51,528 bases of DNA from Opitutales bacterium. Its GTDB lineage: Bacteria > Verrucomicrobiota > Verrucomicrobiia > Opitutales > UBA953. Position 1 is the stretch's first letter. Each line of letters starts with the position of its first letter. The position numbers and the translations under genes were made by a program. Shown here in pieces: positions 19,166-51,151 of the stretch. The notes under the pieces are model-generated. The model made no database searches. It had not been told where the DNA came from and worked only from the letters and a program-made list of their open reading frames with translations. Location of the stretch: contig JAILGB010000010.1 of NCBI GenBank assembly GCA_024697185.1, positions 1 to 51,528 of the forward strand, written 5' to 3'.

Positions 19166-19204
19166 GTTCCCGCGGGATTTTTTCTGCGGGAACGTTTTTT
19201 TTTT
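19166..19204 (+). terminator. Terminator after hisG made of an inverted pair of the iterated word
   Basis: GTTCCCGC (19166-19173) pairs with GCGGGAAC (19186-19193) around a 12-base loop, then a run of about ten T. The same element recurs before the second FGE-like gene. Confidence 0.8.
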
Positions 19205-19277: not shown

Positions 19278-20486
19278 ATGAATATGAAATCGTTTATTGA
19301 ACTTGTTAAAATCCCCAACAAAAATTATTCGATTGGCAAATATCCCGTGACCCAGGCGGAATATAAGGCGATTATGGGCGAAAATCCCTCACATTTTAGA
19401 GGCGGAGATCGCCCGGTTGAAAACGTTTCGTGGCATGATGTATGCGATTTTTGTAAAAAGTTGACGGCGCGGGAACGCGCCCTCGGCAGATTGCCGAAGG
19501 GCTTTAAATATCGTCTGCCGACTTCGGAGGAGTGGGAAGTCGCCTGTCGTGCGGGAACGACAACGTGGTTTGGTTCCGGAGATACGGAGGAGGATTTGGC
19601 TCGTGTCGCGTGGTATTATAAAAATTCCGAAGATGAAACCCATCCTGTTGGGCAAAAGGCACCTAATGCTTGGGGTATTTATGATATGCACGGCAATGTT
19701 TGGGAGTGGTGTATGGATTATCGGGACTCGGGCCGTGTTTGTCGCGGTGGCAGTTGTGATTCAGATAATCGAGACGCGGATTACTGCGAGTCGTCGCACG
19801 TCAATGTCCCCAGCGGCAACCCGAACTACCGCGACCGCTATCGTGGCTTCCGCGTGGTTCTTGCTCCCGTAGGCCAATTTGAAGGTTGTGGTCAAGACCC
19901 GTTTGAAATAGTTGCAATCCCCGGCAGAAATTTTAGCATTGGCAAATATGAGGTGACACAAAAGCAATATGAGGCGATTATGGGCAAAAATCCCTCCCGT
20001 TTTAGAGGCGAAGATCGCCCGGTTGAATGCGTTTCGTGGCATGAAGCATGCGATTTTTGCCAAAGGTTGACGGTGCGGGAACGCGCCGCCGGCAGATTGC
20101 CGGAGAGCCTTGAATATCGTCTGCCGACTTCGGAGGAGTGGGAAGTCGCCTGTCGTGCGGGAACGACAACTCGTTTTTGTTCCGGTGATACGGAGGCGGA
20201 TTTGGCTCGTGTCGCGTGGTATGATGAAAATTCTGAAGATGAAACCCATCCTGTTGGGCAAAAGGCACCTAATGCTTGGGGTATTTATGATATGCACGGC
20301 AATGTTTGGGAGTGGTGTATGGATTATCGGAATTATTGGGATTGGGGCTCGAACCGTATCGTTCGCGGTGGCAGTTGGTACAACAGCGCAAATTTCTGCA
20401 AGTCGTCGTGCGACAACATCGCCGACCCGGTCACTGGCAGTATCGGCATTGGCTTTCGCGTGGTTCTTGCTCCCGTAGGCCAATAA
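19278..20486 (+). CDS. Two-domain FGE-sulfatase (SUMF1/C-type-lectin-like) protein with variable C-termini
   Basis: This 402-residue protein has two tandem formylglycine-generating-enzyme-like domains (about 3-199 and 209-402). Each contains YRLPTSEEWEVACRAGTTT, VGQKAPNAWGIYDMHGNVWE and a final GFRVVLAP. Catalytic FGE enzymes carry a specific cysteine pair near the end; here the region differs between copies, so oxidase activity is doubtful. The segment between CMDYR and GFRVV (about 19,728-19,846 and 20,322-20,453) differs strongly while flanking DNA is almost identical, and its variable codons mostly end in C or T. This is the look of a diversity-generating retroelement target, inferred. 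No signal peptide is visible. Confidence 0.8.
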   Translation: MNMKSFIELVKIPNKNYSIGKYPVTQAEYKAIMGENPSHFRGGDRPVENVSWHDVCDFCKKLTARERALGRLPKGFKYRLPTSEEWEVACRAGTTTWFGSGDTEEDLARVAWYYKNSEDETHPVGQKAPNAWGIYDMHGNVWEWCMDYRDSGRVCRGGSCDSDNRDADYCESSHVNVPSGNPNYRDRYRGFRVVLAPVGQFEGCGQDPFEIVAIPGRNFSIGKYEVTQKQYEAIMGKNPSRFRGEDRPVECVSWHEACDFCQRLTVRERAAGRLPESLEYRLPTSEEWEVACRAGTTTRFCSGDTEADLARVAWYDENSEDETHPVGQKAPNAWGIYDMHGNVWEWCMDYRNYWDWGSNRIVRGGSWYNSANFCKSSCDNIADPVTGSIGIGFRVVLAPVGQ

Positions 20487-20553
20487 TGTCCGTTTTTGGG
20501 CTTTTGTTATTCCCGCAAGATTTTTGTGCTTGTTGAGATCTTTGTGATTTCGT

Positions 20554-20589
20554 GTTCCCGCGGGATTTTTTCTGCGGGAACGTTTTTTT
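20554..20589 (+). terminator. Terminator after the first FGE-like gene
   Basis: GTTCCCGC (20554-20561) and GCGGGAAC (20574-20581) pair around a 12-base loop followed by seven T. It is almost identical to the hairpin at 19166 and belongs to the duplicated unit. Confidence 0.8.
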
Positions 20590-20661
20590 AATAAAAATAT
20601 TGCGTTTTTTTTTGGTGTGTTAGATTGTAGAGACAAGAAATACCCTATTGGATTTATTTTT

Positions 20662-21249
20662 ATGAATATGAAATCGTTTATTGAACTTGTTAAAATCCCC
20701 AACAAAAATTATTCGATTGGCAAATATCCCGTGACTCAGGCGGAATATAAGGCAATTATGGGCAAAAATCCCTCACATTTTAGAGGCGAAGATCTCCCGG
20801 TTGAAAACGTTTCGTGGTATGATGCACGCGATTTTTGCCAAAAGTTGACGGCGCGTGAACGCGCCGCCGGCAGATTGCCGGAGATCCTTGAATATCGTCT
20901 GCCGACTTCGGAGGAGTGGGAAGTCGCCTGTCGTGCGGGAACGACAACTCGTTTTTGTTCCGGTGATACGGAGGCGGATTTGGATCGTGTCGCGTGGTAT
21001 TATAAAAATTCCAAATGTAAAACCCATCCCGTTGGGCAAAAGGCACCTAATGCTTGGGGTATTTATGATATGCACGGCAATGTTTGGGAGTGGTGCATGG
21101 ATTCTCGGGGCTCGCTCCGTGTTAGTTGCGGTGGCGGTTGGAGCGGCAACGCGCTTTTCTGCGAGTTGTCATACGTCTTCGACGACGACCCGAACTTGCG
21201 CTTCTTCAATCTTGGCTTCCGCGTGGTTCTTGCTCCCGTAGGCAAATAA
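20662..21249 (+). CDS. Single-domain FGE-sulfatase (SUMF1/C-type-lectin-like) protein with variable C-terminus
   Basis: This 195-residue paralogue of the upstream gene has the same first residues (MNMKSFIELVKIPNKN). The ATG at 20662 is chosen by that match; an upstream in-frame ATG at 20617 lies in the duplicated leader. The core is nearly the same as the upstream domains. The C-terminal part (about 21,103-21,219) reads VSCGGGW...CELSYVFDDD and differs from both upstream domains before returning to GFRVVLAPVG. Its variable codons are AGC, GGC, AAC, TTC, TAC, GTC, GAC and similar. This fits a displayed or binding protein diversified at its end. Ligand and location are unknown. Confidence 0.78.
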   Translation: MNMKSFIELVKIPNKNYSIGKYPVTQAEYKAIMGKNPSHFRGEDLPVENVSWYDARDFCQKLTARERAAGRLPEILEYRLPTSEEWEVACRAGTTTRFCSGDTEADLDRVAWYYKNSKCKTHPVGQKAPNAWGIYDMHGNVWEWCMDSRGSLRVSCGGGWSGNALFCELSYVFDDDPNLRFFNLGFRVVLAPVGK

Positions 21250-38849: not shown

Positions 38850-39515
38850 TCCGCCGATCCCGCCGACAACATCACGACGACAGTTTATGACTTGGGGCAC
38901 AGCAAGCCGTCTTGCGTGACGCGTTCTTATGTCGCCTTGACCGGCGAACTCGCCTCGATTTCCTACAACGACGGCACACCTACCGAGACTTTTTCCTACA
39001 ATCACCTCGGGCAACTCACAACTGTGACCGACTCCGCGGGAACGACGACTAAAATCTACGATTCCTACGGGAACGTCGCCACGGAAACGCAAGGTGCGAC
39101 CGGTGCGACGCTCGCGTTCGGCTACGATGCGTTCGGACGCGAAACGACCTGCACGATTTCGCGCGGCCAGCAGACAATTGCGCTTTTCGGGCTGGCTTAC
39201 GACGCGGCGACGGGACAGCTTTCTGTCGGCTCTTACGGGAATGTCGAGTTTGCCTACAATTATCTTACGAGAACGAATTTTTTGTCGAGCGTGGAAAATT
39301 ATTTTGTCACAAAGACGAGAACTTATGAGTCCGCGCGTGACTTGCCTGTTGAAATCGCTTATAATGACAGCGTGAGCAAGCTCCTCGCAAAACGGAACGA
39401 CAGTAATCCTAAATCTTGTGAATGTCGCTATACAGAGATTGATGCTACTCTTAAGCCTCCACCTGGTGCTGTTCCGTTTAAAAAACCAACAGGTGGCGGC
39501 ATTGTTTTAATATAG
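38850..39515 (+). pseudogene. Rhs/YD-repeat fragment without N-terminus
   Basis: From 38850 an open frame lacking a proper start encodes YD-type repeats: SYNHLGQLTTVTDSAGTTTK, IYDSYGNVATETQG and GYDAFGRETTC are recognisable. It ends with an unrelated 45-residue tail (...PPPGAVPFKKPTGGG) and a stop at 39515. It lacks the N-terminal export parts and the Rhs core end, so it is a displaced toxin-end cassette or a remnant. The immunity-like gene starts 8 bases later, the usual toxin-immunity arrangement. Confidence 0.7.
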
Positions 39516-50392: not shown

Positions 50393-51151
50393 ATGAAAAA
50401 ATACATAGCAGCACTAACACTTATCGCAGCGGGAACGACACTGGCGAATGCGGAGAATGTTTTGACGCAGTATGCCACGATGTCGGACCTTGTGAGCAAG
50501 GCGGCAACGATTACGGCGACGAATGTCAGCGCCAATTACGCGAACAGCGTGACGGCTTATGCTTTTGCCGCCGGCACAAATTCGTTTCTCAACATTACGG
50601 ATACCGATCTTTACAGCTACGTGACCGGCGGGACCGGCTATTTGACGGTGGCGGCATGGATCAAGGCGGATTCCGTTACGGAAAACTCCGTCTTCTCGTT
50701 TGGCGGGCAAGGCGACGGCGTCAAGTTTGCCCTCAAAGACGGCAAAATGCAGTTTACGACAAAAAATGTTGCGGACAAGAATACGAACTCGGCGAGCATT
50801 ACGGCAGGAGACTGGACGCTTGTCGCTTGGGCGCTTGATCTCTCGAAGAGCACCAATTCTCAAGTCTATGTCGGCAACTCGACGACCACGATAAATGTCG
50901 GCACTTGGAATGCGGCGAATCCGCAGACCTTTGCCATCGGTTCCGGCAACAGCGGCAATCTTCGCGACGGTTACCTCGGCGAGATTGCAAATCTGACCGT
51001 GTTCAAGTCCGACTCTTTGGCGGATGCGTCGGAGGTTGTTGCGAAAATGGGCAGCGCCCCCGTCCTCGTTCCCGAGCCGTCAATGTTCGGCTTGTTGGCA
51101 GGCATCGGCGCCTTGGCACTCGTCGGCGCGCGTCGCCGCCGTTCCCGCTAA
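50393..51151 (+). CDS. PEP-CTERM protein with LamG/concanavalin-like domain
   Basis: This 252-residue exported protein has a signal peptide (MKKYIAALTLIAAGTTLANA). The mid part YLTVAAWIKADSVTENSVFS and the ATINVGTWN-type strands resemble a LamG/concanavalin jelly roll, which binds glycans in other proteins. The C-terminus is VPEPSMFGLLAGIGALALVG plus a basic end (residues about 226-252), the PEP-CTERM signal recognised by exosortase for export to the surface, often linked to exopolysaccharide. TATAAT at 50384-50389 lies just 3 bases before the ATG; a longer leader from an upstream TATTGT is an alternative. Confidence 0.88.
   Translation: MKKYIAALTLIAAGTTLANAENVLTQYATMSDLVSKAATITATNVSANYANSVTAYAFAAGTNSFLNITDTDLYSYVTGGTGYLTVAAWIKADSVTENSVFSFGGQGDGVKFALKDGKMQFTTKNVADKNTNSASITAGDWTLVAWALDLSKSTNSQVYVGNSTTTINVGTWNAANPQTFAIGSGNSGNLRDGYLGEIANLTVFKSDSLADASEVVAKMGSAPVLVPEPSMFGLLAGIGALALVGARRRRSR

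Follow-up and report, generated by a model that had tools for sequence, protein, structure and literature searches.

In mutagenic retrohoming, the reverse transcriptase (RT) of a diversity-generating retroelement (DGR) copies an AAC-rich template RNA with errors at adenines, and the resulting cDNA replaces the variable region (VR) at the 3' end of a target gene. Template codons are mostly AAY, so that nearly any substitution at position 1 or 2 yields a sense NNY codon, and the encoded residues lie at the rim of the binding surface in the lectin fold. The prototype, the DGR of Bordetella phage BPP-1, is phage-borne, diversifies the target Mtd and uses the accessory protein Avd rather than an HRDC protein. 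Catalytic formylglycine-generating enzymes (FGEs) carry paired active-site cysteines ahead of a conserved GFR motif. In Treponema denticola, the DGR targets possess an FGE/C-type-lectin fold, an HRDC accessory gene lies beside the RT and remote targets are present (PMC4891356). T. denticola isolates without RT and template repeat (TR) keep their targets, whose VRs differ from the template of a sister mostly at adenines (PMC4891356).

Here we analyze three FGE/C-type-lectin domains in an Opitutales genome, encoded in a stretch of 51,528 nucleotides that is referred to as the window. The kind of locus is already known from T. denticola, and the additions are the host, the tandem array and the detection of targets across species.

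Three tandem FGE-like domains with divergent C-terminal segments

Two ORFs of 402 and 195 amino acids encode the three FGE-sulfatase (PF03781) domains, named copies A, B and C (Table 1). All reading frames are intact, and the ORF of copy C (20662-21249) lies inside a longer open frame. Amino acid identity among the copies is 74-78%, with 78% for copies A and C, while the closest foreign homologue, found in the sister species G016, reaches 63%. A fourth, diverged lipoprotein copy is present on contig C18 of the window genome. By inspection, this paralogue and the G016 target have a signal peptide; none is seen in copies A and C.

The start of copy C and its upstream flank are A-like and its later part and downstream flank are B-like. 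Informative sites follow the same course, matching A in the first part and then mostly B. By its sequence, copy C is thus an A/B recombinant tandem duplicate, and this mosaic together with the repeated flanks indicates that the array arose via tandem duplication and unequal recombination. Constant-region dS among the duplicates is ~0.10. The corresponding dN/dS of 0.68-0.93 suggests weak constraint, compatible with decaying duplicates.

Table 1. Coordinates of the domain copies, their variable regions and the conserved blocks that follow, numbered from the first base of the window.
Feature	Position	Strand	Remarks
Copy A, FGE/C-type-lectin domain	19278..19877	+	PF03781; first half of two-domain 402-aa ORF 19278-20486
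Copy B, FGE/C-type-lectin domain	19902..20483	+	PF03781; second half of 402-aa ORF 19278-20486
Copy C, single-domain FGE/C-type-lectin ORF	20662..21246	+	PF03781; 195 aa
Variable region, copy A	19725..19853	+	core spans the codon following CMD-Y-R to GGC TTC CGC; exceeds the sister-species template by five codons
Variable region, copy B	20346..20459	+	114 bp, equal to the G016 template core
Variable region, copy C	21109..21222	+	114 bp, equal to the G016 template core
Conserved 3' block, copy A	19850..19877	+	CGC GTG GTT CTT GCT CCC GTA GGC CAA
Equivalent block, copy B	20457-20483		3-6% divergence
Equivalent block, copy C	21220-21246		3-6% divergence

Between the CMD-x-R and GFRVVL motifs, pairwise nucleotide divergence among the copies is 31.5-37.8%. 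In codon alignments, the 60 codons (180 bases) before this segment diverge by only 5.0-7.2% and the 33 bases (11 codons) after it by 3.0-6.1%. A sequence-only reading of the window had described three FGE/C-type-lectin domains that are nearly identical outside a strongly differing segment. The contrast of 31-38% against 3-7% in the flanks bears out the segment itself. Near identity is a fair description immediately around it (5-7% before, 3-6% after) but not of the whole upstream region, which diverges by 7-14%, so that the 'constant' parts are not quite identical. The copies also differ in length, copy A having five extra codons within the core and copy B five just before it. In copy C the VR ends 8 codons ahead of the stop codon. 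A conserved GGCTTCCGCGTGGTTCTT block comes after the VR and, judged by its position, may be the place of a candidate IMH-type homing boundary. Third codon positions account for 6-9 of 35-42 differences in the VR and for 9-15 of 31-60 upstream. Codon-position bias alone was judged too weak as a test for a DGR in the window, and a test based on template adenines was used instead.

An AlphaFold2 model of copy C (mean pLDDT 94) has as its top fold match in the PDB the T. denticola variable protein 1 (TvpA, 2y3c), ahead of true FGEs. 2y3c is likewise the top match in a sequence search with the window protein, and the window variable segment aligns with RVLRGGSW...LGFR in the C-terminal part of TvpA. 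On the PF03781 assignment and this model, copy C is a C-type-lectin-fold gene whose 3' end holds the VR, as in a DGR target. A single cysteine alone recurs in the FGE tails. The window proteins would probably bind ligands and not be catalytic.

A complete DGR in a sister species

Outside the window genome, copy C finds its best match on contig C33 of G016, a genome of the same genus, next to an RT. This locus (C33:6617-9288) encodes, in order, a secreted FGE target, an HRDC-domain protein (PF00570), the RT and an AAC-rich TR whose start overlaps the 3' end of the RT gene. The target possesses an N-terminal helical region in addition to its signal peptide. The RT carries the motifs LPIGNLTSQ and YMDD, and its top match among solved structures is 8ub7 (E = 6.7e-46), which we take to be the Bordetella BPP-1 DGR RT complex. 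The VR of the cis target (VR1) differs from the TR at 15/34 adenines and at 1/89 other bases (p = 3.5e-9). For a remote target on contig C40 (VR2), mismatches fall on 18/34 adenines and 2/89 other bases (p = 1.7e-10). By these sequence features, G016 holds a complete DGR with RT, TR, VR, accessory gene and adenine-only mismatches, plus a remote second target, and the system is apparently active. Further DGRs, which have related RTs and near-repeats with zero non-adenine mismatches over 90 bp, occur in other families of the order, over which DGRs of the G016 type are scattered.

Template adenines of G016 predict the variable sites of the window copies

The G016 template was used in place of one from the window's own lineage; a neighbouring housekeeping protein shows 30% difference between the two genomes. 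Its only function in the test was to label sites as adenine or non-adenine. It had no role in site choice, and variation was then scored among copies A, B and C. Variable sites comprised 30/33 template adenines and 23/81 other sites (p = 4.6e-10), and when the template was moved in whole-codon steps between -24 and +24 bases, the adenine count stayed at or below 20/33. Where codons are aligned to template AAY, 43/45 window codons are NNY compared with ~54% in the constant parts, in agreement with the earlier statement that variable codons are mostly NNC/NNT and constant ones mixed. The G016 TR also has the length and codon pattern found in the VRs of copies B and C.

Direct comparison with the G016 template gives the same direction of bias. 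The copy C VR has mismatches at 23/34 adenines and 22/89 other bases (p = 1.5e-5), and an adenine excess is seen for copy B as well (p = 0.005), whose VR is the closest match to the template in the window genome (76% over 84 bp). Over all sites, adenine bias is not significant in the FGE tails of two other loci of the same genome (C18b, p = 0.24 and 0.51; C21, p = 0.22). A weak bias (p about 0.003-0.01) is nevertheless found for G016 C9 and G013 C5, an FGE pair with conservation across species, because template adenines fall in loops. An adenine excess against a foreign template is therefore not unique by itself, and the among-copy test is the one relied on. With a sister template as stand-in, the non-adenine differences (15-25% pairwise) are not cleanly divisible into decay and template difference.

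Since adenines of a foreign TR predict the variable window bases and the signal is lost on shifting, the assignment of the three segments as DGR variable regions is strongly supported at the sequence level. The DGR origin that the sequence-only reading had proposed for them is upheld by this in-register prediction and by the adenine-only change of the G016 VRs. Variation without any retroelement, whether ordinary diversifying selection acted on a surface loop of the FGE family or gene conversion homogenised the flanks, would suit the loop-rich nature of FGE tails, the recombinant duplicates and a constant-region dN/dS that is not low. It leaves unexplained, however, why foreign adenines predict 30/33 variable sites in exact register, why 43/45 codons are NNY and why an intact, adenine-only DGR acts on the orthologous G016 targets; moreover, the FGE tails of G016 C9 and G013 C5 are conserved between the same species. 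We consider such an origin hardly credible.

RT, template and HRDC gene are missing from the assembly of the window genome

The window genome is a draft assembly of 1.59 Mb in 32 contigs that is 97.4% complete. No DGR RT was found in it with PF00078 (RVT_1), with the sister RT or with an eight-member DGR RT profile, and no HRDC gene with the G016 HRDC protein. The G016 TR DNA matches only the VRs and short stretches of 18-22 bp, and a degenerate TR pattern with three mismatches allowed has copy B as its sole match in the genome. The RT, template and HRDC gene that make a DGR complete are not present in the assembly. Because the RVT_1 and sister-RT searches do detect such RTs in other genomes, the absence is genuine as far as the assembly goes, though not proof for the organism.

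The window itself contains neither an RT nor a template, as had been noted from its sequence. The accompanying proposal that the system would act in trans is unsupported, given that whole-genome searches returned no machinery or template. Two outcomes had been named that would jointly speak against a DGR: lack of RT and template in the genome, which holds for the assembly, and lack of bias towards template adenines, which is contradicted by the bias present.

An active DGR could still rewrite the three targets in trans if its RT and template were located in the unassembled 2-3% or in an unbinned element. A cassette of ~2 kb could be missing from a draft of this kind, in which assemblies can break at DGR repeats and near-identical TR/VR repeats favour such breaks. 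The C40 target of G016, rewritten from the C33 template, shows that remote targets occur in the genus, and diversification after the duplication implies activity not long ago. These points have to be set against six kinds of search without an RT, HRDC gene or TR. Third-position differences argue in the same direction: they occur at 7-11 of 38 codons among the window VRs but at 2 of 41 between the two VRs of the active G016 system, an excess that is expected if homing has stopped refreshing the sequences. Together with the distribution described below, this makes present activity in trans unlikely, if not negligibly so.

Targets are more widespread than the machinery

RT and HRDC gene are found in 1/8 genomes of the genus, namely G016, and six further genus genomes (90-98% complete) have no RT and no HRDC gene, which weighs against an overlooked active system in the window genome. 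DGR-type VR targets are also present in G000, G012, G013 and G015. The FtsK-APH site allows a direct comparison. In G016 it holds target, HRDC gene, RT and TR; in G013, with flanks of ~90% DNA identity, the same syntenic site holds an FGE VR gene alone, without HRDC gene, RT and template, again speaking against activity in trans. The difference arose through loss of the cassette in G013 or its gain in G016, and the sequences favour loss because the G013 VR is adenine-biased.

Several other RTs were considered and rejected as DGR RTs. The one in G015 (C76), with its GPHVSN and IDDY motifs and a methyltransferase-like gene next to it, is similar to Abi/DRT enzymes. In G007 and G055 the RTs have motifs of group II introns (QGGSISP, QGAVISP), and the G021 RT has the appearance of a non-LTR element. 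The viral_contigs set contained no relatives of the G016 RT and no exact match to the constant-region pattern; homologues of the window protein in this set are distant only (31-39%).

The patchy occurrence of the machinery also bears on the possibility that the targets came by horizontal transfer, already varied, from a relative with a DGR, and that no diversification took place in the window lineage. RT and HRDC gene in a single genus genome and the scatter of G016-type DGRs over the order would fit such an arrival. However, three tandem copies with similar flanks and different VRs, plus the C18 copy, need either diversification after duplication or several arrivals, and copies A to C are closer to each other than to any foreign homologue. 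Arrival of ready-made variants is consequently very improbable.

Further FGE genes were observed in related genomes. In G015, whose genome lacks a DGR RT, one locus (L061, C44:8000-14000) contains two tandem FGE genes with DGR-like tails that differ from each other (RVIRGGSCLNFAQNC... and RVIRGGGGDCSPRSC...). G003 and G008, which belong to another genus of the same family, have ~23 FGE-like matches each (e.g. L064, L065), and the one G003 tail examined shows a strong adenine bias relative to the G016 template (26/33 vs 21/81, p = 2.4e-7). No RT was found in these two genomes, both of which are incomplete. Their FGE-like genes possibly represent a much larger DGR target set.

Other features of the window

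The 9-mer GCGGGAACG occurs at 106 places on both strands of the window (1-51528), ~1 per 490 bp, compared with 0.55 expected from base composition; examples are positions 19186, 19469, 20574 and 21316. Loci of six genus members (G000, G011, G012, G013, G014 and G016) have a high density of 1.6-3.4 per kb, those of G015 and G017 a low one of 0.2-0.35 per kb, and elsewhere the 9-mer is rare or missing. GCGGGAACG resembles a dispersed motif of the DNA-uptake or Chi-like type and is also part of hairpins near the window FGE genes. An ORF at 50393-51151 ends in PEPSMFGLLAGIGALALVGARRRRSR, a PEP-CTERM-like sorting tail, with similar tails in ORFs of G016 and G012. At 38892-39515, a short ORF with YD/RHS-like repeats (TFSYNHLGQLTTVTDSAGTTTKIYDSYGN...) appears to be a piece of a larger RHS-type gene.

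Discussion

The window copies are probably orphaned DGR targets whose diversification followed their tandem duplication and was the work of a DGR that has since been lost or is absent from this strain. A DGR would have acted in the window lineage after the duplication that made copies A to C. The cassette would then have been lost, recently, or be missing from the strain, leaving fixed orphan targets under ordinary mutation. Diversification after the duplication, and well after the split from G016, is indicated because the flanks (dS ~0.10) are far less diverged than the variable regions; gene conversion of the flanks could mimic this pattern.

A related scenario sees the RT-template cassette as a helper that comes and goes in the genus and is carried by a minority of strains or species, while targets persist and are re-diversified when it returns by gene transfer. 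We regard it as a rather doubtful extension, but if it were true, orphan targets would constitute a standing repertoire that can be re-activated. Targets that have merely been orphaned, the reading we prefer, already matter for how DGRs are found. DGR surveys begin from the RT gene, and leftover targets in RT-less genomes are easily missed. A sister-species template detects targets across species (p = 5e-10), offering a practical route to 'fossil' DGR targets. The G013/G016 pair, one site with and without HRDC gene, RT and TR, lets the frequency of loss and the usefulness of fixed targets be asked.

Among known systems, the DGR of T. denticola with its TvpA target family is like the window locus in having C-type-lectin-fold orphan targets in RT-less genomes, with 2y3c as the best match in both sequence and fold. 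Unlike in T. denticola, the window host is unrelated, tandem copies share one ORF, a recombinant single-domain copy is present and no signal peptide is seen. In addition, the RT occurs in 1/8 species of the genus, and the comparison is made between species, not strains. The DGR of G016 provides the closest foreign homologue (63% amino acid identity) but is complete, whereas the window genome has targets alone. BPP-1, finally, shares with G016 the adenine-specific logic of mutagenic retrohoming, and the G016 RT is related to that of 8ub7.
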